From: Flavobacterium sp. 90 | GTDB taxonomy: Bacteria; Bacteroidota; Bacteroidia; Flavobacteriales; Flavobacteriaceae | Length of the DNA stretch: 64,000 nt | Direction: 5' to 3' | Assembly (NCBI RefSeq): GCF_004339525.1 | Contig: NZ_SMGE01000001.1 | Coordinates: 1,240,001-1,304,000 of the forward strand | In this document: piece by piece, positions 5,581-57,590 of the stretch | Layout: the number at the start of each line of letters is the position of its first letter | Position numbering within the stretch: the stretch's first letter is position 1 | The notes under the pieces: model-generated | Seen by the model: the letters and a program-made list of their open reading frames with translations, nothing else | What the model was told of the DNA's origin: nothing | The model's database searches: none | Translations under genes and position numbers: made by a program

Positions 5581-5650
5581 GGGCTATCCGTTTCAATCTT
5601 TTGCTTTTTAAAGAAAAAAGCAAAAGGATTTCCACTTCTATCCCTAACCC
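5581..5650 (-). repeat. Covarying hairpin element, copy A
   Basis: Read on the minus strand it has the family 5' box GGGATAGAAGTGGAAATCC, an inner stem TTTTGCTTTTT/AAAAAGCAAAA and the 3' box GATTGAAACGGATAGCCC. Four other copies lie at 18098-18167, 48621-48683, 54331-54390 and 57452-57590. The ends are conserved while the inner stem differs in each of the four compact copies yet stays self-complementary. Confidence 0.8.
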
Positions 5651-5878
5651 AAACGGAAAACAAGAACTTTTTCTTAAATCAATTGAGATACAAAGTAATT
5701 AGTGAAAATTCGTGGCTCGAGCGATAGCGAACAGGCTAAGCAAATTCGTGGCAAAAACAATCTAATACTTTCAAAATTCCCATTCTACAATCTTATAAAT
5801 CAAGAGTCTAATTCTGTAAAAGAAAAGCTTCTGTTAATTCTCAACTTTGTAATACACATTAATTTAAAAATAAAAGTT

Positions 5879-6337
5879 ATGATACATACAGAAGAAACCA
5901 CAACAGAAACAGTTAACACATTAGAAGGATTAATTTCTATTTTAGAAGACGGAAAACTTGGATATACAAATGCCGCTGAGCACGTAAATGACTTGTCAAT
6001 TAAAGCTGATTTTTTAGACTATGCCCGAGAACGTGCTTTATTTATAGTTGAATTACAAGACCAAATAAATAAACTAGGAAAATCAACCGATACTTCCGGC
6101 GGAGGTGCATTAGGCGCTCTACATCGCACCTGGATCGATATCAAATCATCATTCACTGGCGGAGATACTGAAGCGATTGTAAATGCGTGTATTACCGGAG
6201 AAGAAGCAGCCGTTGAAAAATACAAAATGGCTCTGGATAAAAACGAACTTGAAGGCACTCAAATTGCTATTATTTCGAAACAATTGAATACTATCCAAAG
6301 TACATTAGATAAAATTAAAACGAAAAGATTGTCATAA
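5879..6337 (+). CDS. PA2169-type four-helix-bundle protein (DUF2383)
   Basis: 152 aa from the ATG at 5879. A longer frame from 5702 reads through repeat sequence (ATTCGTGG words) and is rejected. The sequence is helical with the family pattern LEGLISILEDGKLGYTNAAE at the start and GEEAAVEKYKMALDKNEL later, matching DUF2383/PA2169 proteins with a ferritin-like bundle. The clear iron-binding EXXH pairs of true ferritins are absent. Function is unknown; relatives are often stress induced. It stands alone between a repeat-rich gap and a strong terminator. Confidence 0.78.
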   Translation: MIHTEETTTETVNTLEGLISILEDGKLGYTNAAEHVNDLSIKADFLDYARERALFIVELQDQINKLGKSTDTSGGGALGALHRTWIDIKSSFTGGDTEAIVNACITGEEAAVEKYKMALDKNELEGTQIAIISKQLNTIQSTLDKIKTKRLS

Positions 6338-6364
6338 TAATTGACACTATTTTTTTTGGAGCGG

Positions 6365-6398
6365 AAACTACTTGGTTTAATAGCCAAGTAGTTTTTTT
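6365..6398 (+). terminator. Intrinsic terminator
   Basis: AAACTACTTGG pairs with CCAAGTAGTTT, followed by a T run. It terminates the DUF2383 gene. A near-identical stem follows the next gene at 7083-7116. Confidence 0.85.
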
Positions 6399-6472
6399 GT
6401 TTTGTAGGAATTTAAAAATAAATCTTTACTTTCGCCGCAACCAAAAAATAATTCTCAACCAAAAAACGTTCT

Positions 6473-7051
6473 ATGAATTTATCATTACGCAATTCGTTCT
6501 TTATTTTAATCTTTACTTTATTTTTTAGCAATCAGGCAAAATCCCAAACAGAAGGTAATGCTATAAAAGCCTCAATAGGGTTTGTATCAAGCACTTCAAA
6601 TTACATAGAAGAAGATCCGGAAATCATAGATGGTTCTGGTTTTTATGCAGAAGGAGAATATGTAATTGGATTGACAACATGGTTTAGTGTAAGACCATAT
6701 GCCGGAGTAATTTTAACATCAACGGACGGAGATGCTGTTAAGAACCCAAAAGGTTACCGAGTGGAAACTAAAGCTTTTTTAGTAGGTGGAAAAGTTCGTC
6801 TTTGTGCCCCAATACCTTGGGTAGCTCCTTTTATAGAAGCTGGTATTGGTACCTCAATAGGTTCGTTTGTAACCTACACTAAGGACGTTAATAAAAAAGC
6901 GAGTGGCGCTCAGGTTCATATTCCTATAAGCGTAGGTCTGGCAGTGGGACGTAAAAATAATATAGAAATTGGAATCTCTTTCTATGGGCATCCGTCTATT
7001 GAACAATCTTCCGGAGTATTTGCTGCAGGACTTTCTTTTCCATTAGATTAA
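6473..7051 (+). CDS. Exported small beta-barrel-like outer membrane protein, unknown function
   Basis: 192 aa with a clear signal peptide (hydrophobic residues 10-20, likely cleavage after QAKSQ near residue 25). The rest alternates short polar/aromatic strands (FYAEGEYVIGLTTWFSVRPYAGV, read as strands), has several GxxxG-like glycine turns and ends in a hydrophobic strand with phenylalanine (AAGLSFPLD). This is the look of an eight-stranded outer-membrane barrel. No family name is certain. It is flanked by two terminators with nearly the same stem, so it is monocistronic. Confidence 0.7.
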   Translation: MNLSLRNSFFILIFTLFFSNQAKSQTEGNAIKASIGFVSSTSNYIEEDPEIIDGSGFYAEGEYVIGLTTWFSVRPYAGVILTSTDGDAVKNPKGYRVETKAFLVGGKVRLCAPIPWVAPFIEAGIGTSIGSFVTYTKDVNKKASGAQVHIPISVGLAVGRKNNIEIGISFYGHPSIEQSSGVFAAGLSFPLD

Positions 7052-7082
7052 TAGATCGTTTGTCGTAAAATTTGAAGAAAAG

Positions 7083-7116
7083 AAAACTACTTGGTTAATA
7101 AACTAAGTAGTTTTTT
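7083..7116 (+). terminator. Intrinsic terminator
   Basis: AAAACTACTTGGTT pairs imperfectly with AACTAAGTAGTTTT, followed by T residues. It is almost the same stem as the terminator at 6365-6398, so the two flank the outer-membrane gene as a direct repeat. Confidence 0.8.
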
Positions 7117-7177
7117 GTTTTATTAAAAACTGAAATAATATATTTTTATATCAAATTCTATAAAAAAAAAGTATCAA

Positions 7178-7723
7178 ATGAAAAAAGTAATTCTAGATTT
7201 AGCCGTGACCTTAGATGGTTTTATTGAAGGTCCAAATGGAGAAATTGATTGGTGTATTATGGATGATGAAATGGATTTTGATGGCTTTTTATCAAACATC
7301 GACACCATCTTTTATGGCCGCGTAAGTTATGATGCATGGGGTAATTATCAACCGGATGCGAATGCAGATAATTCAGAGAAAATGCTTTGGCAAGGCGTAC
7401 ATTCAAAAAAGAAGTATGTTTTTTCTACTCAGAACAAACAAGATAGCAATGCCACTTTCATAAACTCTGATATAGCAAATACAGTAAAGGAGATTAAGGA
7501 ACAATCCGGAAAAGATATCTGGTTATATGGCGGTGCAAGTCTAATTAAGACTTTTATTCAATTGAATCTTATAGATACTTATAGAATTTCTGTTCATCCA
7601 ACAGTTTTAGGAAATGGCAAACCGTTATTTGAAGATTTAAAAGAACGAATCGAATTAAAATTAATTAAAACTAATATTTTCAAATCAGGTGTTGTTCAAC
7701 TTATCTACGAACCAATTCAATAA
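7178..7723 (+). CDS. Dihydrofolate reductase-fold protein (RibD C-terminal family)
   Basis: 181 aa. The N-terminus MKKVILDLAVTLDGFIEGP is the first strand and loop of the DHFR-like RibD_C fold; FYGRVSYDAW near residue 46-55 and DIWLYGGASLIKTF near residue 111-124 are the usual NADPH-site strands. These single-domain proteins are annotated as dihydrofolate reductase family but the deaminase half of RibD is absent, so riboflavin synthesis is unlikely. Substrate is unknown. No operon partner is close. Confidence 0.85.
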   Translation: MKKVILDLAVTLDGFIEGPNGEIDWCIMDDEMDFDGFLSNIDTIFYGRVSYDAWGNYQPDANADNSEKMLWQGVHSKKKYVFSTQNKQDSNATFINSDIANTVKEIKEQSGKDIWLYGGASLIKTFIQLNLIDTYRISVHPTVLGNGKPLFEDLKERIELKLIKTNIFKSGVVQLIYEPIQ

Positions 7724-7864
7724 ATACAAAAAATTCATTTATCATCATTCCATATAAGTTAACTATTTCAAAAAAAGTCACTTCAGCATTAGCAAACTCG
7801 AAATATTTATAAGAACTTTGCAAACTTTTTTCCGTGAATACCACAGAAGGTTAAAGTCTTAAAA

Positions 7865-9736
7865 ATGAAGAAGATCGAAATATTAGCTCCGGCTAAAGAT
7901 TTAATTGGAGGAATGGCAGCCATAAATAGTGGCGCCGATGCAGTTTATATTGGTGCACCACAATTTGGAGCACGTTCAAACGCTAACAACTCTATTGAAG
8001 ATGTTGCTGCTTTGGTACAATATGCACACTTATTTAATGCTCAGGTTTTTGTCGTTATGAATACCATTTTGTATGACAACGAATTAGAAATTTGCCGTTC
8101 AATGATCTGGGAATTATACGACATTGGTGTCGATGCCCTGATTATTCAGGATATGGCGATTATGGAAATGGACTTACCTCCTATCGTACTTCACGCTAGT
8201 ACACAATCCAATAACCGTGATGCTGATAAAATTAAATTCCTTAAAGATGCCGGAATCAAACGTGTGGTTTTAGCCCGCGAATTGAACTTACATCAAATTA
8301 AAACGATTTACGACGAAGCCGATGTTGAATTAGAATTTTTCGTGACCGGCGCATTATGTGTATCCTTTAGCGGAAACTGTTACATGAGTGTAGCAAACGG
8401 AGAACGTAGTGCAAATCGTGGTTCTTGTGCTCAAAACTGCCGTTTACCTTATAACTTAATCGATGGAAACGGAGAAACCTTAATCAAAAACAGTCACTTA
8501 CTTTCGATAAAAGATTTAGACATTTCAGAACAAATCCCAAATTTGATCGAAGCAGGAATCGTTTCTTTTAAAATCGAAGGACGTTTAAAAGATGTTGTTT
8601 ACGTTAAAAATAACGTTTCTTATTTACGTCAAAAATTAGACAGCTATTTAGAGGGAGATGGACGCGGAAAATACATCAAAGCTTCTTCAGGAACTTGTAC
8701 TTATACTTTTGACTCCTCTTTAAACAGAACTTTCAACCGTGGTTATACAGATTATTTTGTAAACGAAAGACACAGTTCTATTGGTTCTTGGGAAACTCCA
8801 AAATCAAAAGGACAATATATTGGTAAATTAATCAGAACTATTGGAAATGCTTACGAAATCGAAAATGGCGAATTACTAAACAACGGTGACGGACTTTGTT
8901 TCATCAACGAAAACAATGAAGCCGACGGAATCTACGTAAACAAAGCTGAAAACGGTAAAATCTATCCAAACGTTTTAAAAGAAGTAAAAGACGGAACTTT
9001 CATTTACAGAAATAACGACGCCGCTTTCATCAAAATTGTTGAAAGAGAAGATAGCGCCGTTCGTAAATTAAGCACGACATTATTACTTACTGAAACTGAA
9101 ACTGGTTTCGAACTTATTGCAACCGATGAAGACGGAAACGTGAGCACCGTTACTTTAGAACACGCAAAAGAGCAAACTAAAACCGGCGAGTCTATCGAAG
9201 AAAACATCAAAACGCAATTGGCTAAAACAGGTTTCACACCTTACAAAGCTGATGAAATCAACGTTATGTTTTCTCAAAACTGGTTCCTTCCTATTTCAAA
9301 AATCAACGAAATGCGAAGAACCGTTTACGATCAATTGACTGAAATTCGTTTGAAAAATTACAAACGTGAAGAACACCAAATGATAAAAACATCGCATCCG
9401 TATCCTGAAACCAAACTGGATTTCATGTACAATGTTTCGAACAAAACGGCTCGTAAATTCTACGAACGCCACGGTGTTACCGAAATCGAAAAAGCATTCG
9501 AATTACAATGGGATCCAGGAAAATCTCGCGTAATGACAACCAAATATTGCATCAAATACGAATTAAAAAAATGTCCGATACACCAAAAAGATATTGTAGG
9601 CGTTAAAGTAAAAGAACCTTTGGTTTTAAAACAAGGCGAACTTGAATACAAACTAAAATTCAACTGCAAACCCTGCGAAATGGAAATCTGGGAAAAAGAT
9701 GCCGAATTCGAAATTGAAGAAGATCATTTTCATTAA
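7865..9736 (+). CDS. U32-family protein, probable RNA hydroxylation (TrhP/RlhA-like)
   Basis: 623 aa. The N-terminal TIM-barrel-like domain begins KIEILAPAKDLIGGMAAINSG, and the family signature around FFVTGALCVSFSGNCYMS contains Cys165 and Cys172, with Cys188 and Cys192 close behind (RGSCAQNCR); these four cysteines are the expected iron-sulfur ligands. U32 proteins were called collagenases, but characterised members of this type hydroxylate RNA: TrhP (tRNA U34) and RlhA (23S rRNA C2501). The length is nearer to RlhA (about 650 aa) than to TrhP (about 450 aa). A second cysteine group (KKCPIH, NCKPCE) occurs in the last 60 residues. Exact RNA target is inference. Confidence 0.8.
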   Translation: MKKIEILAPAKDLIGGMAAINSGADAVYIGAPQFGARSNANNSIEDVAALVQYAHLFNAQVFVVMNTILYDNELEICRSMIWELYDIGVDALIIQDMAIMEMDLPPIVLHASTQSNNRDADKIKFLKDAGIKRVVLARELNLHQIKTIYDEADVELEFFVTGALCVSFSGNCYMSVANGERSANRGSCAQNCRLPYNLIDGNGETLIKNSHLLSIKDLDISEQIPNLIEAGIVSFKIEGRLKDVVYVKNNVSYLRQKLDSYLEGDGRGKYIKASSGTCTYTFDSSLNRTFNRGYTDYFVNERHSSIGSWETPKSKGQYIGKLIRTIGNAYEIENGELLNNGDGLCFINENNEADGIYVNKAENGKIYPNVLKEVKDGTFIYRNNDAAFIKIVEREDSAVRKLSTTLLLTETETGFELIATDEDGNVSTVTLEHAKEQTKTGESIEENIKTQLAKTGFTPYKADEINVMFSQNWFLPISKINEMRRTVYDQLTEIRLKNYKREEHQMIKTSHPYPETKLDFMYNVSNKTARKFYERHGVTEIEKAFELQWDPGKSRVMTTKYCIKYELKKCPIHQKDIVGVKVKEPLVLKQGELEYKLKFNCKPCEMEIWEKDAEFEIEEDHFH

Positions 9737-9757
9737 TATTATTTAACTGCAAAGTTT

Positions 9758-9882
9758 TTTACCGCAAAGAGCGCAAAGGAATACGCAAGGTTCGCAAGAT
9801 TAATTTTAAAATCTTTGCGAACCTTTTTCTTTTACTTAAAAACAAAAACTTTGCGTATTCTTTTGCGAACTTTGCGGTTAAA
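9758..9882. repeat. Long inverted array of GCAAAG words
   Basis: The left arm carries CGCAAAG-type words at about 8-11 bp spacing and the right arm (CTTTGCG words, to 9882) is its near reverse complement. Inside lies a second perfect-looking hairpin (GGTTCGCAAGAT with ATCTTTGCGAACC, one mismatch). It follows the U32 gene. Similar arrays are at 27616-27764, with single-arm remnants near 10148-10240 and 51800-51822. Confidence 0.75.
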
Positions 9883-9907
9883 TTGATTCTGTTATTTCCA
9901 CAGTCTT

Positions 9908-10005
9908 GTCATTTCGACGAAGGAGAAATCTTCGCAAGAAGCTCCGCTCCAATATACCAATCTTTGTAGAGTTTCTCGTGGAGATTTCTCCTTCGTCGAA
10001 ATGAC
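9908..10005. repeat. ~100-nt inverted element (GTCATTTCGACGAAGG family), copy 1
   Basis: The outer arms GTCATTTCGACGAAGGAGAA and its complement are perfect over 24 bp. Pairing continues with several compensating changes (TCTTCGCAAGAAGCTC against TCTCCACGAGAAACTC). A second copy with the same ends and nearly the same total length is at 48775-48876. Confidence 0.8.
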
Positions 10006-10253
10006 AAACTATATGATTACTTTATCTAAAAATGACATTTCCAATTAATTTAAAATCTTCTCAATCTGCAAAATCTGCGAGAAACCTTATTTTAACTTAA
10101 AAACAAAAACTTTGCGAACATTTTGGTTAAACAATTTACAAAACCAATTCAACACAAAGCTTTGTGAACTTTGTGTTTTTTATAAACCCCTTTAAATATA
10201 ACCTTTGTGTTCTTTGCGGTAAATAAAACTTTGCGGTTAAATATAGATTACAA

Positions 10254-10277
10254 AGACGCACTGCAGTGCGCCTCTAC
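10254..10277 (+). repeat. Palindrome element (GCACTGCAGTGC core), copy 1
   Basis: AGACGCACTGCAGTGCG followed by CCTCTAC. The 12-bp core is a perfect palindrome. Other copies are at 22711-22735 (inverted) and 23138-23161. Confidence 0.8.
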
Positions 10278-10356
10278 ACTAATACATATAAATAGAACTT
10301 TGCGGTTAAAAACATTTTTCTGTACTTTTACTACTCAAACAATACACCCCTCCCAA

Positions 10357-11517
10357 ATGAAAATACTACTCCTCGGTTCAGGCGAATTAGGCAAAGAATT
10401 TGTCATTGCCGCACAGCGAATCGGACAAACCATAATTGCTGTTGATAGTTACGAAAATGCCCCTGCAATGCAAGTTGCTCATGGTTTTGAAGTAATCAAT
10501 ATGCTTGACGGTGAAGCTTTAGATAAAATCGTAGCCAAACACAAACCAGATTTTATAGTTCCTGAAATAGAAGCCATTCGTACCGAACGTTTTTACGATT
10601 ACGAGAAACAAGGAATCACCGTTGTTCCTTCGGCGAAAGCGGCAAACTTTACTATGAATCGTAAAGCAATCCGAGATTTAGCTTCAAAAGAATTAGGATT
10701 AAAAACAGCCAAATATCAATACGCCACTTCTGCCGAAGAATTGCAAAAAGCCGTTCAGGAAGTTGGAATTCCGTGTGTCGTAAAACCATTAATGTCTTCA
10801 TCCGGAAAAGGACAATCTACTATAAAAATCGAAAGCGAGATCGAGAAAGCATGGCAATATGCGGTTGCAGGTTCACGTGGCGATGTAATCGAAGTTATTG
10901 TAGAAGCATTTGTTGATTTCAATTCAGAAATTACACTTTTAACGATTACCCAAAATAATAATCCAACCTTGTTTTGTGCTCCAATTGGTCACAGACAAGA
11001 ACGTGGCGATTATCAGGAAAGCTGGCAACCTGCTTTAGTTTCAGAAAAAGATTTATACGAAGCGCAAGATATGGCTGAAAAAATTACTGAAGCGCTTGGA
11101 GGTGCAGGACTTTTTGGTGTTGAATTTTTCTTAACTAATGACGGTGTTTATTTCTCTGAACTTTCTCCTCGTCCACATGATACCGGAATGGTAACTTTGG
11201 CAGGAACTCAGAATTTCAACGAATTTGAATTGCATTTACGCGCCATTTTAAGTCTTCCTATTTTCGAAATCACTCTTGAAAAAGCCGGAGCAAGTGCCGT
11301 AATTTTAGCTTCAGAAGATTCTAATAATCCAACTTTTACCGGAATCGAAAAAGTAGCTGCTTTACCAAAAACTGATTTCAGAATATTTGGCAAACCAACT
11401 TCAAGACCGTATCGCCGAATGGGAGTTGTATTAAGTCACGATTCACTGGCAACTCCAATTGAGGAAATTGTTGAACGTGCCAAAGCAACTTCAAAATTAA
11501 TAACTGTAAATTCTTAA
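10357..11517 (+). CDS. purT: Formate-dependent phosphoribosylglycinamide formyltransferase PurT
   Basis: 386 aa from the ATG at 10357. The in-frame extension upstream runs through GCAAAG repeat words and is rejected. The start [20 protein letters not shown] is diagnostic for PurT; the ATP-grasp domain shows [14 protein letters not shown] (phosphate loop) and [30 protein letters not shown] (metal ligands; read in two parts). It uses formate and ATP to convert GAR to FGAR in purine synthesis, an alternative to PurN. The stop codon is 2 nt before the next gene, so they are cotranscribed. Confidence 0.95.
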
Positions 11518-11519
11518 AA

Positions 11520-11837
11520 ATGAAAAAAGTACTATTTATAGCATTCCTACTTATTGGAATCGCAACTCAGGCCCAAAATAAAAAAACAAACGAAAAACCT
11601 CAAATCGTAGAAACCGCTTGTGGCGAATGTCAGTTTGGAATGAAAGGTAAAAGTTGTGATTTAGCCGTTCGCATTGACGGAAAACCTTATTTCGTTGACG
11701 GAACAACTATTGACGAACATGGTGACGCTCATGCCGAAGATGGTTTTTGCAATAAAATACGCAAAGCGTCTGTTACCGGAAAAGTAGAAAACGGACGTTT
11801 TAAAGCCACTTCATTCACTTTACTTAAAGAAAAATAA
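11520..11837 (+). CDS. Exported cysteine-rich DUF6370 protein
   Basis: 105 aa. Signal peptide at residues 1-18 (MKKVLFIAFLLIGIATQAQ). The mature part has ETACGECQFGMKGKSCDLAV and a fourth cysteine in EDGFCNKI, the DUF6370 pattern, suggesting a periplasmic metal or disulfide site. It begins 2 nt after purT and its stop codon overlaps the next start by 1 nt (TAATG), so purT, this gene and the Crp/Fnr gene form one unit. Function is unknown. Confidence 0.8.
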   Translation: MKKVLFIAFLLIGIATQAQNKKTNEKPQIVETACGECQFGMKGKSCDLAVRIDGKPYFVDGTTIDEHGDAHAEDGFCNKIRKASVTGKVENGRFKATSFTLLKEK

Positions 11838-12412
11838 TGGAGTTAATTCTTGAAAATATTGCCAAACACGTTTCGCTAACTCCCGAAGAACAAGCTCTCT
11901 TTTTATCTAAAACCGAAACACATAACTACAAAGCCAAAACTATTTTATTAAGTGCGGGCGAAATTTGTAAACATTCCTATTTTGTAAACTCAGGAATTTT
12001 AAGAAGCTTCAACATCAACGATAATATCGTAGAACATGTTCTGTCATTTGCTTGCTCAGGTTGGTGGATGAGCGATATGTACAGTTATTTTTCGCAAAAG
12101 CCAGGACAGCTTTTTATAGAAGTTTTAGAAGATGCAGAAGTAATTTCTTTATCTAAAGAAAATCAGGAACAATTGTTTCACGAAATTCCAAAATTAGAAC
12201 GCTTTTTCAGAATTCTTATCGAAAATTCATTAGTTGCTAATCAGCAACGATTAATGGACAATTTGAGCTTACCCGCAGAAGAACGTTTTGAAAAATTCTC
12301 AACCAAATATGGAAACCTGGTTCACAAAGTTCCTCAAAAACAAATCGCTTCTTTCATTGGCGTTACGCCTGAGTTTTTCAGCAAAATGAAAGCCAGACTT
12401 TTAAAGAAATAA
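11837..12412 (+). CDS. Crp/Fnr-family transcriptional regulator
   Basis: 191 aa. A cyclic-nucleotide-binding-type beta-roll occupies residues ~1-115, followed by the dimer helix and a short C-terminal helix-turn-helix (KQIASFIGVTPEFFSKMKAR). No FNR-type cysteine cluster is visible, so an Fe-S sensor is unlikely. This short form is common in Bacteroidota and rarely characterised. It overlaps the DUF6370 gene by 1 nt, implying coupling with that exported protein and purT; what it senses is unknown. Confidence 0.88.
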   Translation: MELILENIAKHVSLTPEEQALFLSKTETHNYKAKTILLSAGEICKHSYFVNSGILRSFNINDNIVEHVLSFACSGWWMSDMYSYFSQKPGQLFIEVLEDAEVISLSKENQEQLFHEIPKLERFFRILIENSLVANQQRLMDNLSLPAEERFEKFSTKYGNLVHKVPQKQIASFIGVTPEFFSKMKARLLKK

Positions 12413-12420
12413 AAAATATT

Positions 12421-12584: not shown

Positions 12585-12588
12585 ACAA

Positions 12589-12617: not shown

Positions 12618-12624
12618 TTTTGAA

Positions 12625-17541: not shown

Positions 17542-17898
17542 ATGAAATACTTTGCTTTAATAATTACTTTCTTTTTTATCAATTTCAACAATCAAGAAAA
17601 CGATAAACTTACTGGCCGTTATAATTATTTAATAGAGGATAATAATTCCTATATCCTAAAAGACAAAATTACCTTTAAGGATAGTATTTTTATTTTTGAC
17701 AACAAGTTCATGCCAAAAGGAAAAATCTCATATGGTAATACAATATTATTGGAGAATTTCATTAATACTGATTTGATTATAAGCATTCGTAAAGATCAAA
17801 TCAAAAAAGATACAATTTTATTTTACATGCATGATAAGAGTGGAGGGAACTATCTTGATATTTCATCAGGAAAAGGAAAATTGATTAGAATTAAATAA
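17542..17898 (+). CDS. Small exported hypothetical protein
   Basis: 118 aa from the ATG at 17542, 10 nt after the regulator stop codon. Residues 1-14 are hydrophobic (MKYFALIITFFFINF) and look like a signal peptide or anchor. The rest is beta-rich and lysine/aspartate-rich without recognised motifs. The close spacing suggests read-through transcription from the regulator gene, but codon context gives no function. Confidence 0.6.
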   Translation: MKYFALIITFFFINFNNQENDKLTGRYNYLIEDNNSYILKDKITFKDSIFIFDNKFMPKGKISYGNTILLENFINTDLIISIRKDQIKKDTILFYMHDKSGGNYLDISSGKGKLIRIK

Positions 17899-17995
17899 AA
17901 ACCGTTTTTTAATAATCTCGCAAAGACGCTAAGTCGAAAAGTTTTATTTTTCTTTGAACATAATTCTAATCGAAATCTTTGTGGATTATGATTGC

Positions 17996-18022
17996 GTAGA
18001 ATGGATTGAAATCCATCCCTAC
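17996..18022 (+). repeat. Palindromic element GTAG-ATGGATT-AATCCAT-CTAC
   Basis: GTAGAATGGATTGA followed by AATCCATCCCTAC forms a hairpin with GTAG/CTAC ends. A second small palindrome (AGTTC to GAACT) follows at about 18028-18046, then hairpin copy B. It has the same GTAG/CTAC outline as the GCACTGCAGTGC elements. Confidence 0.6.
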
Positions 18023-18097
18023 AATATAGTTCGTTCCTTCGGAACTTTAATAAAAGGCGGAAGTATACATTTCTTATGAAAATAAAAATCTCTCGTT

Positions 18098-18167
18098 TAG
18101 CCCCGATAGAAGTGGAAATCCTTTTGTGCCGAGGTTCGGCACAAAAGATTGCAATGGATAGCGGGAC
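18098..18167 (+). repeat. Covarying hairpin element, copy B
   Basis: 5' box TAGCCCCGATAGAAGTGG, inner stem TTTTGTGCCGA/TCGGCACAAAA with one offset base, 3' box GATTGCAATGGATAGCGGGA. Homology with copy D extends outwards to about 18074-18208, including a 3' tail ending TTTCTGCTCCTAAAAAA and a 5' flank TTATGAAAAT. Confidence 0.82.
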
Positions 18168-18267
18168 TTCAGGTCTTTTGAAAACCGAAATTTCTGCTCC
18201 TAAAAAACACCACAAAGGCATAAAATCTCAGCACCTCAGAACCTCATAAACTTAGCACCTTAAAGAA

Positions 18268-48591: not shown

Positions 48592-48620
48592 GAAACCGAT
48601 AATTCCACTAAAGCGCATGA

Positions 48621-48683
48621 GGGATAGAAGTGGAAATCCTTTTTGTCCGCCACGGCGGACAAAAAGATTGAAACGGATAGCCC
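48621..48683 (+). repeat. Covarying hairpin element, copy C
   Basis: 5' box GGGATAGAAGTGGAAATCC, inner stem TTTTTGTCCGCC/GGCGGACAAAAA, 3' box GATTGAAACGGATAGCCC. Its boxes are the same as in copy A but the stem sequence is different. Confidence 0.82.
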
Positions 48684-48713
48684 GACCCACTTTTTTCGGC
48701 GGGACATGCCCAT

Positions 48714-50240: not shown

Positions 50241-50298
50241 GAATTAATTTAACAATAATACTTTACTATTGAAATAACGTAACAAGTGGGATTGTTTT

Positions 50299-50359: not shown

Positions 50360-50365
50360 GAAAAA

Positions 50366-50806
50366 TTATTTTTGGTTTTCATCGAAATTCACCATCCAGC
50401 TTATACCAAATTTATCTTTGAACATTCCGAAATAAGCGCCCCAAAATGTTTTCCCAAGAGGCATATAAATAGTTCCTCCTGCCGAAAGTCCGTTGAAGAT
50501 TCTGTCTGCTTCTGCTTCACTTTCTACATTGATTGATACTGAAAAGTTTCCACCAAAAACTACATCACCTGATTGTTCGTTACTATCGCTTCCCATTAAA
50601 ATGGTGTCACCAATTGGCAATGAAACGTGCATAATTCTGTTAGCATCTTTATCTGATACTTCCGGACAGCTTCCGTTTTCGTCTGCAGGCATGTCTTTAA
50701 ATTTTCCGATATACGGAAATTCTCCTCCAAAAACTGATTTGTAAAATAGAAATGCTTCTTCGCAATTTCCGTTAAAAATTAAATAAGGGTTTACTGATGT
50801 TGCCAT
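50366..50806 (-). CDS. VOC-superfamily protein, PhnB/YjdN type
   Basis: 146 aa. The start ATSVNPYLIFNGNCEEAFLFYKSVFGG and the end WGAYFGMFKDKFGISWMVN are the conserved PhnB-like betaalphabeta-beta-beta folds of VOC (glyoxalase/bleomycin-resistance) proteins. The substrate is unknown. It is the last gene of a six-gene minus-strand run of alternating VOC and SRPBCC genes opposite a GlxA-type regulator. Confidence 0.88.
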   Translation of the reverse strand: MATSVNPYLIFNGNCEEAFLFYKSVFGGEFPYIGKFKDMPADENGSCPEVSDKDANRIMHVSLPIGDTILMGSDSNEQSGDVVFGGNFSVSINVESEAEADRIFNGLSAGGTIYMPLGKTFWGAYFGMFKDKFGISWMVNFDENQK

Positions 50807-50874
50807 GATATTTTGTTTTTTTTGTTTGTTATAGTTATTCTATTCTCTTAAGTCTATCCTCTTTCTTCTATTCT

Positions 50875-51318
50875 CTATTCTCCTGCTTCTGATAGCTCTT
50901 TTACAACTTCTAATCCTTTTGGGAAAACTTCTTTATAATAATCGATATACTTTTCGACTGTATCAATTTGAGCGACTAAATCTATAAATTCATCATCCGG
51001 AATTAATCGATAGGTTTCCATTGCGCCACTCCACTTTTTTGTTTCTTCGTTAATTGGTAATTCTTCAAAGTCTTTTATTTCACCCAAATGTTTAAAAGCC
51101 ATATACTCATTTAGAACTTTCGTCTCGATAATACTATACATTCCTTCTCCGCTGGGAGACATGAAATGCACTTTATCACCTTGATTCCAATCGGTTATAG
51201 TGTATGAACCTTCACAAAAAACTCCTGTCCATTTTTTATAGGTTTCGTCATCCCATAAAACTGACCAGATTTTTTCTGCCGACGCCTTGATTCTGATTTT
51301 AAATTCTAATGTTTCCAT
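50875..51318 (-). CDS. SRPBCC (AHSA1-like) domain protein
   Basis: 147 aa from the ATG at 51318, one base after the previous stop codon. FKIRIKASAEKIWSVLWDDETYKKW is the N-terminal strand and helix of the helix-grip (START/Bet v1-like) fold. It binds a hydrophobic ligand or acts as an Hsp90-cochaperone-like domain; neither can be proven here. It is coupled to the VOC gene at 51320. Confidence 0.85.
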   Translation of the reverse strand: METLEFKIRIKASAEKIWSVLWDDETYKKWTGVFCEGSYTITDWNQGDKVHFMSPSGEGMYSIIETKVLNEYMAFKHLGEIKDFEELPINEETKKWSGAMETYRLIPDDEFIDLVAQIDTVEKYIDYYKEVFPKGLEVVKELSEAGE

Positions 51319-51319
51319 A

Positions 51320-51727
51320 TTATGATAATTTACTAAAATCCATAAAAAGTACATTCCAACGATGACCGTCTAAATCTGCAAAACCAAAACCATACATCCA
51401 ACCTTGACTTTCTGCAGGAGGAGCAAAAACGGTTCCGCCAGCTTCTGCAACTTTTTTTGCCAATTCATCAACTTCTGCAACACTTTCTGCATCAATCGAA
51501 ATCAAAACTTCTGAACTCAATTTTGTATCGGTAAGTTTGTTTTGAGAAAAACTGGCGAATAATGATTCTTCAAAAAGCATTACTACAAATTTTCCTTCAC
51601 CCACGATCATGCAAGTCGAACTTGGCGTATCGTGTTCTTCATTAAAAGAGAATCCTATTTTCGAGAAAAAGGCTTTAGATTTTGCCACCTCTTTTACAGG
51701 CAAATTCAGCCAAATTTGTTTTGTCAT
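51320..51727 (-). CDS. VOC-superfamily protein (glyoxalase-like)
   Basis: 135 aa. IWLNLPVKEVAKSKAFFSKIGF at the start and GWMYGFGFADLDGHRWNVLF at the end are typical VOC half-sites. It is about as long as, and clearly similar to, the VOC protein at 52765-53175 (both share LNLPVK, F-F-x-x-x-GFSFN, and W-M-Y near the end), so they are paralogues. The SRPBCC gene starts 1 nt after its stop. Confidence 0.88.
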   Translation of the reverse strand: MTKQIWLNLPVKEVAKSKAFFSKIGFSFNEEHDTPSSTCMIVGEGKFVVMLFEESLFASFSQNKLTDTKLSSEVLISIDAESVAEVDELAKKVAEAGGTVFAPPAESQGWMYGFGFADLDGHRWNVLFMDFSKLS

Positions 51728-51886
51728 AGTTTTATGTTTAGGTTAAACCATATAAGTGATGTAAGATAATTTAAGTGATACTTGCTAAGTTTATGTTCTC
51801 GCAAAGTCGCAGAGTCACAAAGTTTTTTTTCCTCGGTCCCTTTGAACCTTTGTCCCTTTTTTAAGCCTTTGAACCTTAGAAAAAAA

Positions 51887-52291
51887 CTAATTTTGCTCTA
51901 CATAACTTTTAAAATTATCCATGATTGCCTGCCAGCCTCCGCGTTGCATCTCCTCTGGATTTTGGGTTTCTGGATCAAAACTTTCGACTACTTCAATTCC
52001 ACTTGGAGTTTCTTCGAAACTAATTTCTACTTTTCTGCCATCTCCCAAAACATATTCAATTGCTTTGTGTTTTTCTACCAATGTATATTCACCACCAAAA
52101 TCAAAACTCATGCTGCCATCTTTTGCTGCCATTGTAGATTTAAATGTTCCGCCTTCTCTTAAATCATTTTCGGCATAAGGCGTGTGCCAGTCTGGCGAAG
52201 CAAAGCTCCATTTTGTAATGTGTTCCGGCAATGTCCATAAATCCCAAACTTTGTCTATTGATGCGCTAATTGTGTTTTTTACTGTTATCAT
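51887..52291 (-). CDS. SRPBCC (AHSA1-like) domain protein, paralogue 1
   Basis: 134 aa. ITVKNTISASIDKVWDLWTLPEHITKW and DWHTPYAENDLREGGTFKS are shared almost word for word with the next gene upstream (52339-52746), so the two arose by tandem duplication. Helix-grip fold of the AHSA1 type; ligand unknown. It is in the alternating VOC/SRPBCC run. Confidence 0.88.
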   Translation of the reverse strand: MITVKNTISASIDKVWDLWTLPEHITKWSFASPDWHTPYAENDLREGGTFKSTMAAKDGSMSFDFGGEYTLVEKHKAIEYVLGDGRKVEISFEETPSGIEVVESFDPETQNPEEMQRGGWQAIMDNFKSYVEQN

Positions 52292-52338
52292 TATATCTTT
52301 TTGTTTATTGTTTAATATTTGTTTTTTAATTGATTTAA

Positions 52339-52746
52339 TTATTCAAAATTTTCAACGTATTCTTTAAATTTCTGAACAACTGCCTTACAAAATTGCTCTT
52401 GCATATCCTCAGAAAGTGTTGCTTCAGGTTCAAATATTTCTGTAAGTTTTGTTTCTGAACCTAAATTTTCAAAACGAATACTTGCAATTCTATTGTCCGA
52501 AAGTCGATATTCAATTAATGAAAATTTTTCTATTTTAGTGTAAACTCCTTCAAAATCAAAACCCTCGTTTCCATTTTTTGAAGCCATTGTAAATTTGAAT
52601 TTACCGCCTACTTTCAAATCATTTTCTGCAAAAGGTGTATGCCAATCTGCAAAAGGAATATTCCAATTCTTTATGTGTTCCGGTAATGTCCATAATTCCC
52701 ACACTTTCTCAACTGGTGCATTAATTAAATTTTGAACTTTTATCAT
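52339..52746 (-). CDS. SRPBCC (AHSA1-like) domain protein, paralogue 2
   Basis: 135 aa. IKVQNLINAPVEKVWELWTLPEHIKNW and DWHTPFAENDLKVGGKFKF match the paralogue at 51887-52291. It begins 18 nt after the stop codon of the VOC gene upstream, so they are cotranscribed. Confidence 0.88.
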   Translation of the reverse strand: MIKVQNLINAPVEKVWELWTLPEHIKNWNIPFADWHTPFAENDLKVGGKFKFTMASKNGNEGFDFEGVYTKIEKFSLIEYRLSDNRIASIRFENLGSETKLTEIFEPEATLSEDMQEQFCKAVVQKFKEYVENFE

Positions 52747-52764
52747 TTTACAGTTTTATCTTAG

Positions 52765-53175
52765 TTACATTTTATCCGGAATCTGATCTTCATCTATAAC
52801 CGAGAATTCCCAATGATGTCCATCTAAATCAAAAAAGGAACGATAATACATCCAACCATAATCTTGTGCTTCTGCATATTCAGTTGCTCCATTTTTGAGC
52901 GCGTTCTCAATGATTTCATCTACTTTTTCACGACTTTCAGTTTGTACGGAAAGAATTACCTCGTTAGTAGTTTCTGCATTGCAAATTTCTTTGTGTGTAA
53001 ATGTTTTATAGAACTCTTCAACTAACAACATCGCATTGATGTTTTTACCAATGATCAGACAAGTTCCTTTATCATTTGTAAATTGTGGATTGAACGAAAA
53101 ACCTAAGTGGGTAAAAAATGATATTGACCGATTTAAATCTTTTACAGGAAGATTTAAGAAAATTTTTGTTTCCAT
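52765..53175 (-). CDS. VOC-superfamily protein, paralogue of 51320-51727
   Basis: 136 aa. IFLNLPVKDLNRSISFFTHLGFSFN at the start and GWMYYRSFFDLDGHHWEF near the end. First gene of the minus-strand run, divergent from the GlxA-type regulator 140 bp away. The repeated VOC-then-SRPBCC order suggests duplication of a two-gene unit. Confidence 0.88.
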   Translation of the reverse strand: METKIFLNLPVKDLNRSISFFTHLGFSFNPQFTNDKGTCLIIGKNINAMLLVEEFYKTFTHKEICNAETTNEVILSVQTESREKVDEIIENALKNGATEYAEAQDYGWMYYRSFFDLDGHHWEFSVIDEDQIPDKM

Positions 53176-53236
53176 TTTTATATAAAATTACAAATTATTA
53201 AGACAAAATTAGATTATTAACATTAAGCTTAAGATA

Positions 53237-53266
53237 CTTTAAATGTCAACTTTAGGGTCATTTAAG
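53237..53266. promoter_or_regulatory. Candidate operator in the VOC cluster/GlxA divergent region
   Basis: CTTTAAATG at 53237-53245 and CATTTAAG at 53259-53266 are inverted half-sites (one extra base in the first). A second palindrome TTAAGCTTAA is at 53223-53232. They are candidates for the divergent regulator or another factor. Confidence 0.4.
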
Positions 53267-53276
53267 ACAATTTATC

Positions 53277-53284
53277 TACTTTTG
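53277..53284 (+). promoter_or_regulatory. Putative -7 promoter element of the GlxA-type regulator
   Basis: TACTTTTG matches TAnnTTTG, 32 nt before the start codon. Confidence 0.5.
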
Positions 53285-53315
53285 TTAGAATATTTTTTTC
53301 TAAAATAACAAGACG

Positions 53316-54281
53316 ATGACTAAGAAAGTAGGCCTGATCATACCTCATGATTATAAGTTATTAAGCATAGCAGCGATTTTAGAAGTTTTTGAAACGGCTA
53401 ATAAACTTGCTAAAGAAGATCAAAAACCGTTTGACATTATGGTTTTTCAATTGGCTGAACAGATTAGCGATAAACGTTTATTTGGATATGATGTAAATAT
53501 TATTGAAGAATCGAATGAATCTTTGGGTCTGATTTTGATTCCGGCTTTTACCACTGATAATATGAGTGAAATGATTGCGAAGAATAAAAATTTTATTCCG
53601 TGGTTAAAAAAACAACATACATCAGGCGCCGAATTAGCGAGTTTTTGTACAGGCGCTTTTTTATTTGCTGCTTCAGGTTTGCTCAACGAAAAACTGGCAA
53701 CAACTCATGTCGACGCTTGTAGTGCTTTTACTAAAGCTTTTCCAATGGTGAAACTAAAACCCGAAGAAACTTTAACAGCCGACGGAAGTCTATATACCAG
53801 CGGTGGTTCTACCTCAACATTTCATTTATTGATTCTTTTAGTTCAAAAATATTGTGGAAATGAAATTGCAGTACAAATTGCAAAAATATTCTCGATCGAT
53901 TTGAACCGATATAAGCAAAGCTACTTTAGCACTTTTAGACCCAATCATTTGCATAATGATACGCTGGTTGCGATGCTACAGCAAAAAATAGAAAGTCAAT
54001 ATCATTCGATCGAAAAACTGGAAGAAATCACAAAAGATATTCCAACAAGTGCGCGCAACATGACACGAAGATTTAAACAAGTTACGGGAATTCCGCCAAT
54101 TGAATATTTACAAAATATAAGAGTCGAAAGTTCTAAGAAATATTTAGAACAAACACAGCTTTCGATTTCGGAGATTATCGAAAAAACAGGTTACAATGAT
54201 CCCAAAGCTTTTAGAAAAGTATTCTATAAAATGGTTGGAATGAAACCTATTGAATATCGCGAGAAATTTAGGGTTCAGTAA
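53316..54281 (+). CDS. GlxA-family transcriptional regulator (DJ-1/PfpI sensor plus AraC DNA-binding)
   Basis: 321 aa. The N-terminal DJ-1/PfpI-like domain (~1-190) has the nucleophile elbow ASFCTGAFLFAASGLL; the C-terminal AraC domain (~225-321) ends with ISEIIEKTGYNDPKAFRKVF and GMKPIEYREKF. The ligand is unknown. It is divergent from the VOC/SRPBCC run and is the likely regulator of that cluster. Its stop codon abuts hairpin copy D. Confidence 0.92.
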   Translation: MTKKVGLIIPHDYKLLSIAAILEVFETANKLAKEDQKPFDIMVFQLAEQISDKRLFGYDVNIIEESNESLGLILIPAFTTDNMSEMIAKNKNFIPWLKKQHTSGAELASFCTGAFLFAASGLLNEKLATTHVDACSAFTKAFPMVKLKPEETLTADGSLYTSGGSTSTFHLLILLVQKYCGNEIAVQIAKIFSIDLNRYKQSYFSTFRPNHLHNDTLVAMLQQKIESQYHSIEKLEEITKDIPTSARNMTRRFKQVTGIPPIEYLQNIRVESSKKYLEQTQLSISEIIEKTGYNDPKAFRKVFYKMVGMKPIEYREKFRVQ

Positions 54282-54330
54282 TTTTTTTAGGAGCAGAAAT
54301 CTCGTTTTCAAAAGGCCTCCTTTCCTGCTC

Positions 54331-54390
54331 TACACTATATCTTTTGTCGTGAAACCCACGACAAAAGGATATCGTTTCGATCAGGGCTAA
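54331..54390 (-). repeat. Covarying hairpin element, copy D
   Basis: On the minus strand: 5' box TTAGCCCTGATCGAAACGAT, inner stem TTTTGTCGTG/CACGACAAAA, 3' side GATATAGTGTAGAGC. Homology with copy B extends over 54282-54412, with the words GAAAATGAGATTTCTG and GAAAACGAGATTTCTG as flanking direct repeats. It fills the gap between convergent genes. Confidence 0.8.
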
Positions 54391-54436
54391 ATCAGAAATC
54401 TCATTTTCATAATTTAACAAGCACTTTAAAAAGAAA

Positions 54437-55111
54437 CTACGATGATTTTATAATCCACATCAAGACCTTTTTATTTTGTTTCAAAAGCGCGTCAATTTCT
54501 GTCATGCTTTCATTTGAAACTGCGGGACAACCCCAACCTTCAGGCGTTCCTTCAGGATAAGTTTCATTACTTGAAATGGCATCCCAGGAATGCAAAACAA
54601 TAGCACGATTTCTTGCATTTGAGTTTGTATTGTCTTTTCCTTGTAATATGTAATTCACTTTAATTCCCCATTGACTTACACCACGATCCAAAATAACAAA
54701 TTTGCCAATCGACGAGCAATGTGAATCAAACTCGTTACTTATTATTGCTTTTTCTTTTGACATTGTTGCACCCCATTTATTATCGCCACAACCATGACTC
54801 ACTATATAGGATTTTGAGATTTTGTCTTTTTTAAAATCATAAACAAAAAACCTTTTCAAACCGGAATGCACTCCTAAATCAATTAGAAAAAACTGATCTT
54901 GATTTAGATTATTTTTTTGGCAGTATTGCTTTGCTTCTTTGTAATACTTGCTGTAATTAATTTCTTTAATTTCATTACGAGGTTTTATTTCCGAAGTTGT
55001 TGGATTTGTTTTTATAACACTAGATAAATTATTTTCAGAAATATCTTTATTCTTATTACACGATAAAAGCAAAAGGAAAATTAAATTTAAAACAACAAAT
55101 ATTTTTTTCAT
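54437..55111 (-). CDS. Lipoprotein with murein L,D-transpeptidase-like (YkuD-type) domain
   Basis: 224 aa. Signal peptide with lipobox LLSC (Cys18), a short linker, then a catalytic domain: HSGLKRFFVYDF, SHGCGDNKWGAT, VLHSWDAISSNE (His174) and the active-site motif GWGCPAVS (Cys195). This matches the murein L,D-transpeptidase catalytic family (YkuD_2). Such enzymes crosslink peptidoglycan 3-3, attach lipoproteins, or in some cases only cleave. It is convergent with the GlxA gene and 3' to clpX. Confidence 0.86.
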   Translation of the reverse strand: MKKIFVVLNLIFLLLLSCNKNKDISENNLSSVIKTNPTTSEIKPRNEIKEINYSKYYKEAKQYCQKNNLNQDQFFLIDLGVHSGLKRFFVYDFKKDKISKSYIVSHGCGDNKWGATMSKEKAIISNEFDSHCSSIGKFVILDRGVSQWGIKVNYILQGKDNTNSNARNRAIVLHSWDAISSNETYPEGTPEGWGCPAVSNESMTEIDALLKQNKKVLMWIIKSS

Positions 55112-55142
55112 AATTAAAGACAGAAGTGTTCCTCAAAAGTAT

Positions 55143-55176
55143 AAAAAAAACCTGTTCAAATAAATGAACAGGTTTT
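55143..55176 (-). terminator. Intrinsic terminator of clpX
   Basis: AAAACCTGTTCA pairs with TGAACAGGTTTT, and on the minus strand the stem runs into a T run. A second perfect hairpin (TTTGTCAAAGTT/AACTTTGACAAA) lies just before it at 55185-55211. Confidence 0.85.
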
Positions 55177-55224
55177 AAGGAAACTTTGTCAAAGTTTTGA
55201 ACTTTGACAAAATAATATCAATAT

Positions 55225-56457
55225 TTAAGAAGCAATTTCCATTCGCTTCAATAAGTTTTTATTCAAAGTATGTTTTGCATAATCTTTGTCGATTGTCAAA
55301 ACTTTATCGTCTGAACTTGGCAATTCGTACATTGCATCTGTTAAGATAGCTTCACATAACGAACGTAATCCACGAGCTCCTAATTTGTATTCTAATGCTT
55401 TGTCAACAATAAAATCTAATGCTTCGTTTGTAATCGTAAATTCAACATCATCCATCATGAATAATTTTTGATATTGTTTGATTAACGCATTTTTAGGTTG
55501 TGTCAAAATTGCACGTAATGTTTCGCGATCTAAAGGATCCATATGTGTCAAAACTGGCAAACGACCAATTATCTCCGGAATCAATCCAAAATCTTTAATG
55601 TCTTTTGGAATGATATATTGCAGCAAATTGTCTTTATCAATATTATCTACATTTTTAGATGTAGAATATCCAACTGCCTGACGGTTTAAACGTTTAGAAA
55701 TAATACGCTCAACTCCATCAAAAGCTCCACCTGCGATAAACAAGATGTTTTGAGTATTTACCTCAACAAATTTCTGGTCCGGATGTTTACGTCCTCCTTT
55801 TGGTGGCACATTTACAACTGTTCCTTCTAATAGTTTCAATAAAGCTTGTTGAACTCCTTCACCAGAAACGTCACGTGTTATCGATGGATTATCGCTCTTA
55901 CGGGCAATTTTATCAATCTCATCAATAAATACGATTCCTCTTTCTGCTTTTGTAACGTCGTAATCAGCGGCTTGTAATAAACGTGTCAAAATACTTTCGA
56001 CATCTTCACCAACATAACCTGCTTCTGTAAGTACAGTTGCATCTACGATAGCCAAAGGAACATCTAACATTTTTGCGATAGTTTTTGCTACCAATGTTTT
56101 TCCGGTTCCGGTTTGACCAACCATGATAATGTTACTTTTTTCAATCTCTACTTCGTCGTCCAATTGCTGTTGCATTAAACGTTTGTAGTGATTGTAAACC
56201 GCAACTGACATTACTTTTTTAGTCTGATCCTGACCAATTACATATTGATCTAAGAAAGCTCTGATTTCTTTTGGTTTCTTTAAAATTAAATCCCCAACAA
56301 GTTTAGCGCTTCCGCTTGATTTTAATTCTTCTAATACAATTCCGTGTGCTTGTTCAATACACTTATCACAGATATGTGCATTGATACCTGCAATTAATAA
56401 ATTAGTTTCTGGCTTCTTTCTTCCACAAAACGAACATTCTAATACTACTTTTGCCAT
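55225..56457 (-). CDS. clpX: ATP-dependent Clp protease ATPase subunit ClpX
   Basis: 410 aa. N-terminal zinc finger (Cys8, Cys11, Cys30, Cys33), Walker A GQTGTGKT (114-121), pore loop GYVGED, Walker [11 protein letters not shown], sensor and [11 protein letters not shown] motifs are all present. It unfolds tagged proteins and feeds them to ClpP. The order tig-clpP-clpX on the minus strand is the classic one. A predicted -7 box (56481-56488) suggests it also has its own promoter. Confidence 0.96.
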
Positions 56458-56464
56458 TCTTTAT

Positions 56465-56622
56465 TTAAGTTACTAAGCTGCAAAGATACTAAGTTTCTAA
56501 GCTTTTTACTTTAAAACTTAAAAACTTAGCATCTTTCAGCTTAATCTTTTTTTTATTTTTTTGAATTTCAAATTAAATAGAATACTAAGAACCTTAGTGT
56601 CTTAGTAACTTAGAAACTCAAA
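56465..56622. repeat. Inverted array of CTAAG words between clpP and clpX
   Basis: TTACTAAGCTGCAAAGATAC and TAAGTTTCTAAGC near 56470-56501 face the complementary CTTAGTGTCTTAG/TAACTTAGAAACT at 56595-56617. The array overlaps the predicted clpX promoter. Confidence 0.65.
56481..56488 (-). promoter_or_regulatory. Putative -7 promoter element of clpX inside the CTAAG array
   Basis: On the minus strand TATCTTTG matches TAnnTTTG, 23 nt before the clpX ATG. No convincing -33 TTG is seen. Confidence 0.5.
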
Positions 56623-56624
56623 AA

Positions 56625-57299
56625 TTATCCTCTTCTCAATACTTCATCAATCATTCCGTACTCTTTAGCTTCGTCAGCGATCATCCAATAATCACGCTCA
56701 CTGTCTTTGTGTACTTTATCAAAAGTTTGTCCTGAATGTTGAGAGATGATGTTATACAATTCATCTTTCAATTTCAACATTTCACGTAAGTTGATTTCCA
56801 TATCAGTTGCAACTCCTTGTGCTCCTCCAGATGGTTGGTGAATCATTACTCTTGAATGTGGTAATGCTGAACGTTTTCCTGCTGCTCCTGCACATAATAA
56901 AACTGCTCCCATTGAAGCTGCCATTCCTGTACAAATTGTCGCTACATCTGGTTTGATGTATTGCATTGTGTCATAAATTCCTAATCCTGCGTAAACGCTT
57001 CCTCCAGGAGAATTTAGATAAATTTGAATATCTTTTGATGCATCAGCGCTTTCTAAAAATAATAACTGAGCCTGAACGATATTAGCGATTTGATCGTCGA
57101 TACCTGTTCCTAAAAAGATGATTCTGTCCATCATTAATCTTGAAAAAACGTCTAATTGAGAAATATTCAACTGACGTTCTTCTATAATATATGGAGTCAT
57201 ATTAGTTGGGTTCATCGCTGCTATGATTTTGTCATAGTACATTGCGTTTACTCCTTGGTGCTTTGTAGCAAATTTTTTAAATTCTTTACCGTAGTTCAT
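56625..57299 (-). CDS. clpP: ATP-dependent Clp protease proteolytic subunit ClpP
   Basis: 224 aa. Catalytic Ser129 in GMAASMGAVLL, His154 in HSRVMIHQPSGGAQG and an aspartate further on, with YLNSPGGSVYAGLGIYD before them. It assembles into two heptamers and degrades substrates from ClpX. The N-terminal ~25 residues are longer than the mature form and may be processed. It lies between tig and clpX. Confidence 0.96.
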   Translation of the reverse strand: MNYGKEFKKFATKHQGVNAMYYDKIIAAMNPTNMTPYIIEERQLNISQLDVFSRLMMDRIIFLGTGIDDQIANIVQAQLLFLESADASKDIQIYLNSPGGSVYAGLGIYDTMQYIKPDVATICTGMAASMGAVLLCAGAAGKRSALPHSRVMIHQPSGGAQGVATDMEINLREMLKLKDELYNIISQHSGQTFDKVHKDSERDYWMIADEAKEYGMIDEVLRRG

Positions 57300-57451
57300 A
57301 TGTATCTGTTCTAAGTTTTACTTTATTTAATGTATATATTCTTCATCAAAGGTTGTACCTATTTCTAAAGAATGTCAATTTGTCTTATTTTGAAAATTTG
57401 TTTCAGGTTTATTTTGTTTCAGGTTTCTAGTTCTGGAACTTGTTTCTTAAA

Positions 57452-57590
57452 TAGCCCAGATAGTAGTGAAAAGCTTTTTGAATTCCGGTTTTTAGTTTTT
57501 TTATTCTTGGAAAGCGACTGGAAGAAGCTCTTGCAAGAATTTTAAAAACTTAAACGGAAGAAAAAAACTTGAAACGGATAGCTGGATTAG
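57452..57590 (+). repeat. Degenerate covarying hairpin element, copy E (enlarged loop)
   Basis: TAGCCCAGATAGTAGTG at the left and CTTGAAACGGATAGC at the right match the family boxes, but the inner part is expanded to about 90 nt and contains its own small stem (TTCTTG/CAAGAA). It lies between tig and clpP. Confidence 0.55.

Follow-up and report, generated by a model that had tools for sequence, protein, structure and literature searches.

Flavo-1 elements in Flavobacterium sp. 90: fold, genomic placement and conservation at orthologous sites

We have analysed five dispersed hairpins in a 64,000-nucleotide stretch of the genome of Flavobacterium sp. 90 (assembly GCF_004339525.1, contig NZ_SMGE01000001.1, positions 1,240,001 to 1,304,000), which we call the window, and all five belong to the structured element Flavo-1 (Rfam RF01705). 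The hairpin family is a rediscovery of Flavo-1 and is already known. The reading that we favour, with about even confidence, is that Flavo-1 is an old dispersed element resembling the repetitive extragenic palindromic (REP) sequences, and that its single-stranded fold is under selection at the sites where it stands. Selection on structure, which a preliminary description of this DNA had proposed, is supported by strong covariation and by arms that are conserved at orthologous intergenic sites. Some copies have hardly altered at their sites across dozens of species and therefore probably have some role.

Identity of the family

In the Rfam scan of the window, the five elements (copies A to E) all scored above the RF01705 gathering score of 42 bits (Table 1), with E-values from 2.7e-8 to 3.8e-15. 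Considering these scores and E-values, chance is excluded as their source. The preliminary description had located five related elements, and we confirm their positions from the sequence. It had known of no published description and had listed, among the results that would refute it, agreement with a repeat or RNA family already named; RF01705 is such a family, which refutes the novelty. The family was published as a computationally discovered motif in Table 1 of Weinberg et al. 2010 (PMC2864571), where Flavo-1 is marked 'y' as RNA and 'n' as cis-regulatory and Bacteroidetes are listed. It is also named, without a function, in the table of a review (PMC9029176). Flavo-1 has been on record since 2010 as an RNA to which no function is assigned, and the Rfam entry is typed 'Gene; sRNA'.

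On the one hand, the elements described here and the Rfam family have the same arms, internal loops, variable paired tip and host group. On the other hand, the 76-position Rfam model lacks two helices described below (P1 and P3) and treats the P1 strand of copy C as an unmodelled insertion, and the outer conserved words of forms I and III of the element fall outside it. In addition, the Rfam typing as a small RNA (sRNA) gene is disfavoured by the copy number and orientation found here.

Core fold and strand

The core of Flavo-1 consists of a conserved stem, interrupted by two internal loops, and a variable tip that is nearly always paired. We measured covariation in an alignment (A3) of 88 matches from 87 loci of the own genome, a subset of the 107 copies found there. 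In this alignment, which was fitted to the structure model and is thereby biased toward structure, 97.5% of the cells were paired, compared with 77.2% after shuffling, and 15 of 21 stem pairs showed changes on both sides. The covariation score was 0.570; shuffling reduced it to 0.191, and sliding to 0.088 or less. The claim that the inner stems differ in sequence and are nevertheless paired is borne out by the pairing and the covariation score. On the element strand of the same matches, G-U combinations outnumbered A-C combinations by 68 to 8, indicating a folded strand of fixed sense, which would be either RNA or single-stranded DNA.

Separately, several copies whose inner stems differ carry a common small palindrome, TCCCGATAGCTATCGGGA or nearly that sequence, in the loop (for example, G000:C1:5710115, 3782320, 3525979 and 2913704 of the own genome).

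Architectures

In form I, the core is closed by CCYG/CRGG. In form II, represented in the window by copies A and C, it is closed by GGG/CCC and followed by the hairpin P3, and a downstream strand is complementary to the five bases preceding the core (P1), so that a three-way junction is formed. We could parse 67 of 69 form-II copies, three of them from another site (hits at about 3.6-3.8 kb). An exact five-nucleotide P1 complement was present downstream in 56 of the 67, whereas 1000 swaps gave 36.0 on average and never more than 43. By P1 type, exact complements accompanied GCATG in 46/48 copies, GCGTG in 4/4 (one probably by chance), GCGTT in 4/10, GGGTT in 1/1, GCATA in 1/2 and ACATG in 0/2.

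A third type, which we call form III provisionally, is represented by copy D, with a similar flank on copy B; here a word of type TTTTGAAAACGAAATTTCT flanks the core on both sides. An outer stem between the left and right flanks was also considered and was not supported by the mean duplex energies of own and swapped flanks. These were -4.67 (own) and -4.86 (swapped) for the orthologues of copy D and -3.95 and -4.12 for form I, and for the provisional form III the own mean of -5.08 (swapped, -4.82) fell within the spread of the swapped values, whose minimum was -5.80.

Conservation at orthologous sites

The search for orthologous copies covered 80 named loci around tig, almost all of which belong to Flavobacterium, and used a model derived from 35 copies of the own genome. 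It yielded 47 counterparts of copy C, beside serB. Copy D has 38, and 25 of these, as well as the window copy, are located between recognisable ykuD and araC. Copy E has 21, in the tig-clpP gap, with the long loop in two versions. We compared the arms with the fourfold sites of neighbouring genes in the loci that still hold the element, the window included in each set. The arm differences were 0.049 versus 0.368 at site D (39 loci) and 0.080 versus 0.348 at site E (22 loci). At site C they were 0.061 versus 0.391 (48 loci), without the weak or partial hits in L186, L215 and L223 and without the hits at about 3.6-3.8 kb in L169, L171, L174 and L178, which represent another site. No compared pair was reversed at any of the three sites. 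These nearly frozen arms suggest selection at the site and not recent jumping.

Gene conversion could also homogenise dispersed copies. At all 39 loci of site D, however, the arms diagnostic of copy D are retained, which argues against homogenisation of this kind. Since D-type arms are rare elsewhere in the own genome (one other copy, by eye), gene conversion is an unlikely cause of the constraint at site D.

By the patterns that we chose, the tips at site C could be sorted into five classes. Over the 48 loci, the class changed at least 24 times, compared with a shuffled mean of 23.8. Because classes changed as often as in shuffled data, part of the apparent compensatory change is replacement of the whole hairpin. 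The compensatory change proposed in the preliminary description therefore holds in part. Stepwise compensated changes do occur within a class, as in GCTGTG/CACAGC, GCTCTG/CAGAGC and GTGGTG/CACCAC at site D, but whole tips have also been swapped for unrelated hairpins at the same orthologous site.

Such wholesale replacement is what would be seen if covariation arose without structural selection, through strand-switching (quasi-palindrome correction) or short gene-conversion tracts, with paired tips as a product of mutation bias. The inner stems at site D, nearly all perfectly Watson-Crick with few wobble intermediates, point the same way. However, the arms are conserved far beyond fourfold sites, which correction does not explain at site D; P1 and a 2-bp inner helix covary outside the long palindrome; and the asymmetry between G-U and A-C is strand-specific. 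Nor is the tip class a special case, as only P3 length showed a clear tree signal among five other features at sites C and D. We accordingly give little credence to mutation bias as the source of the covariation. The tip class had been a candidate for an unusually fast trait, and we dropped it because most other features tested there were equally without tree signal.

Other repeats were observed at two of these sites. In L204, L220, L225 and L226, a different palindromic repeat (GTAGAGACGCACTGCAGTGCGTCT type) stands in place of much of the D-site Flavo-1. In tig-clpP gaps without copy E (e.g., L165, L173 and L197), another repeat family is found, GTTTCAGGTTTCAAG...CTTGAAACCTGAAAC.

Copy number and gene context

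The own genome (6.65 Mb) contains at least 107 Flavo-1 matches, 102 of them above the cut-off; the number is a lower bound because 150 of 1872 candidates were scored. Placement was judged by our own codon-score gene calls and not by annotation. None of the 107 copies lay inside a gene, and their gaps were tandem-sense in 31 cases, tandem-antisense in 30, convergent in 17, divergent in 9 and unresolved in 20. When gaps with and without a copy were compared (81 vs 21 gaps, 11 copies at ribosomal RNA (rRNA) operons excluded), there was no preference for a gap class (p 0.48). A consistent orientation to the downstream gene, as looked for in a cis-regulatory RNA, was not observed in the tandem gaps, where sense and antisense copies were about equal. 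With respect to the replichore, 42-46 copies were co-directional versus 61-65 that were not, varying with the assumed origin. A Flavo-1 match was present in 40 of 60 genomes of the order, the own genome included, and in 0 of 14 control genomes, as would be the case for a family centred on Bacteroidota and above all on Flavobacteria; the per-genome counts of this survey saturate at 65 scored matches.

These observations bear on whether Flavo-1 could be a family of independent sRNAs, as the Rfam type implies. Covariation and the G-U excess would agree with this, as would the entries 'y' for RNA and 'n' for cis-regulatory in the table of PMC2864571. However, such RNAs would have to be encoded at more than 100 loci. 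Where it treats Flavo-1, the transcriptome study of F. psychrophilum reports matches sense or antisense to transcripts indiscriminately, and many outside transcribed regions (PMC9723704). Moreover, the promoter motif TAnnTTTG was not enriched upstream of the copies (7 vs 7 far upstream), which argues against a promoter of their own. We therefore regard independent sRNAs as an improbable explanation. The count of TAnnTTTG was higher downstream in sense (23).

Relation to REP sequences and RAYT transposases

REP sequences and the REP-associated tyrosine transposases (RAYT) are best known from gammaproteobacteria. Flavo-1 is like them in that many hairpins with conserved feet are dispersed between genes and a RAYT gene is present in the genome (NF047646 match, 98.5 bits, G000:C1:6309698-6310243; L034, L121). 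The preliminary description had allowed for a mobile hairpin, and a DNA hairpin of the REP type or of the type of miniature inverted-repeat transposable elements (MITE), moved now or formerly by a Y1 (HUH) transposase such as RAYT, would suit the high copy number, which is very uneven among congeners. Additionally, five own copies have the same insertion of about 32 nt, of type CTTYGCCAGTTCGNNCTTTCAGGCTCGGGTGC, at the same position of the 3' arm (by eye; Table 1). An insertion common to five of 107 copies indicates that copying from a common parent probably happened at some time.

Unlike REP sequences, Flavo-1 showed no association with either the presence or the position of RAYT. Presence did not follow the transposase: six Flavo-1-rich genomes gave no PF01797 match (E<=0.001), although they hold at least 65 Flavo-1 matches each (G004 and G030), 64 (G029), 47 (G035), 41 (G011) and 37 (G034); among these, G034 and G035 are incomplete and G029 holds one weak RAYT-like protein match (E 2.2e-4). 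Nor did the copies flank or adjoin RAYT genes. Flavo-1 was found within the fetched flanks of 4 of 30 RAYT-search loci, one of them weak, which is about the expectation from copy density, and about 69 kb separate the own RAYT from the closest of the 107 copies. One copy does lie about 5 kb from a second, longer Y1-like gene (G000:C1:5705281-5705430; L035, L122), which reached 63.6 bits versus the NF047646 cut-off of 80. No match was obtained when copy B with its flanks was compared with plasmid and phage collections (distant blastn) or when one exact Flavo-1 pattern was compared with IMG/VR, both being narrow and weak searches. The many orthologues of copies C, D and E, with their strong constraint, also speak against mobility. 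Mobilisation by RAYT was not supported by the tests of presence and position, the proposal of a mobile hairpin finds no support in these comparisons, and we consider a transposase-driven origin, present or past, to be unlikely. A paper on REP finding tabulates two Flavobacterium genomes, in a passage that does not name Flavo-1 (PMC12306157).

Placement at rRNA operons

In the own genome, 11 copies stand beside rRNA operons. Six of them precede 16S, one at each of the six operons, in antiparallel orientation and at a distance of 739-802 bp, and the other five follow 5S. In five other genomes, a copy was found upstream of 16S in 11 of 23 loci, three fragments from G036 having been excluded from 26 16S matches. 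All 11 were antiparallel. The distance was 574-739 bp in ten cases and 1089 bp in the remaining one, and three of the matches were weak by score. They were distributed as 5/8 loci in G036, 3/6 in G022, 1/4 in G010, 1/1 in G013 and 1/4 in G053, which belongs to another family. Since the operons of one genome do not count as independent cases, and since intergenic space makes a chance occurrence more frequent, the genome is the meaningful unit, and an antiparallel upstream copy was present in all six genomes examined, the own genome included. Downstream of 5S, a copy was found at 5/6 operons of the own genome, in sense, and at 1/24 elsewhere (there were 31 5S matches, one of which lacked a locus; another locus was truncated by a contig end). 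This placement at rRNA operons may reflect function or history.

As a separate observation, the long homology between own rRNA units stops 7-192 bp past Flavo-1 in core-spanning pairs.

Interpretation

If Flavo-1 is an old dispersed element kept by selection on its fold, the functional object would be the folded single strand, more likely as RNA within whatever transcript crosses the element than as an independent sRNA. The conserved internal loops may then form the recognition surface of a host protein. The family would have spread long ago by a mechanism that is no longer visible, and its copies would since have been kept by selection at their sites.

Several observations weigh against this reading. 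Concerning the fixed sense, the G-U excess was weaker in 118 matches from related loci and the window (17 vs 8, p 0.11) and weaker when counted by column (11 vs 4), with 44 of the 68 cells in two columns. Single-stranded DNA can accommodate a G-T wobble as well, so that the excess does not prove RNA. Concerning the three-way junction, 11 of 67 copies had no P1 complement, among them every one of the six form-II copies that precede 16S in other genomes. Of the 56 complements, the one at own 920939 lies 56 nt downstream and seems to be fortuitous. Concerning constraint, the rate test does not take in loci whose copy has decayed and is thereby biased toward conservation, and the constraint at site C may stem from gene conversion, as its arms are the form-II consensus.

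Presence is also uneven. Some congeners have no match (G018 and G020) or a single one (G024 and G033), indicating that Flavo-1 is dispensable within the genus. Of 37 loci in which both neighbours of site D are in place (window included), 11 are without an intact copy, and four of these 11 hold a remnant disrupted by another repeat. Copy E is patchy, being present in 22 of 81 loci with at least 14 changes versus a shuffled mean of 19.5, on a tree made from one gene set (tig, clpP, clpX and araC) with a midpoint root and no support test. On the same tree, the presence of copy D was without signal (39 of 48 loci taken as scorable, 9 changes vs a shuffled mean of 8.4).

A more specific proposal, which we put forward as speculative and rather doubtful, is that Flavo-1 is a genome-wide, strand-specific structural mark read by a putative host protein and not an sRNA. 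Such a mark would have at least two architectures, the simple stem and the three-way junction, would be held by selection across many species, and would preferentially be placed facing outward upstream of rRNA operons. Our study offers handles that we did not find in open-access full text: the constrained copies C, D and E, the two helices beyond the Rfam model, the indifference of orientation to genes, and the upstream rRNA copies of fixed orientation in all six genomes. Constraint, extra helices and rRNA placement make the function of Flavo-1 directly testable.

The copies in the window

Table 1. Positions of Flavo-1 copies and their parts in the window, and of related features in the own genome (G000:C1)
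Feature	Position	Strand	RF01705 match	Bits	Description
Copy A	5560..5650	(-)	5573-5653(-)	67.9	Form II, three-way junction
Copy A, P1	5650-5646 with 5564-5560	(-)			GGGTT with AACCC, exact complement (own1245573)
Copy A, P2	~5644-5581	(-)			Flavo-1 core
Copy A, P3	within 5578-5565	(-)			TTCGCC/GGCGAA
Copy B	18095..18172	(+)	18095-18172(+)	76.6	Flavo-1 core
Copy B, conserved flank	probably ~18064-18209	(+)			Right flank CTTTTGAAAACCGAAATTTCTGCTCC, similar to that of copy D
Copy C	48615..48709	(+)	48608-48691(+)	64.0	Form II, three-way junction; beside serB
Copy C, P1	48615-48619 with 48705-48709	(+)			GCATG with CATGC, exact
Copy C, P2	48621-48683	(+)			Flavo-1 core
Copy C, P3	48686-48688 with 48701-48703	(+)			CCC with GGG
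Copy D	54317..54392	(-)	54317-54392(-)	76.4	Core, own diagnostic pair GATC...GAGC
Copy D, flanks	to ~54283 and ~54412	(-)			Conserved; repeated word of type TTNTGAAAANGAAATTTCT within
Copy E	57449..57592	(+)	57449-57592(+)	51.7	Long-loop Flavo-1, tig-clpP gap
Copies with CTTYGCCAGTTCGNNCTTTCAGGCTCGGGTGC-type insertion	G000:C1:868070, 1984303, 2364421, 3460577, 5089176
Own 5S with nearby copies	G000:C1 ~841203, 1804323, 2896105, 3434423, 4333981, 5420772				Loci of other genomes: L264-L286

The sequence blocks that the preliminary description had given as common to the four compact copies were overstated. The first, GATAGAAGTGGAAATCC, is present in copies A, B and C and absent as such from copy D. 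The second, GATTGAAACGGATAGC, is exact in A and C only, and B has GATTGCAATGGATAGC; copy D has arms of its own, GATCGAAACGATATCC and GATATAGTGTAGAGC, instead. The flank common to B and D on both sides was confirmed, and similar flanks also occur at the orthologues of D. Copy E had been called degenerate, which is wrong, as it folds into a single long hairpin and its long loop is common to the orthologues in the same gap. The intergenic position of the five copies holds under the codon-score gene calls; in the mechanical list of open reading frames, one frame of 123 amino acids (17850-18221(-)) runs across copy B, and it was rejected as a gene by the same calls.

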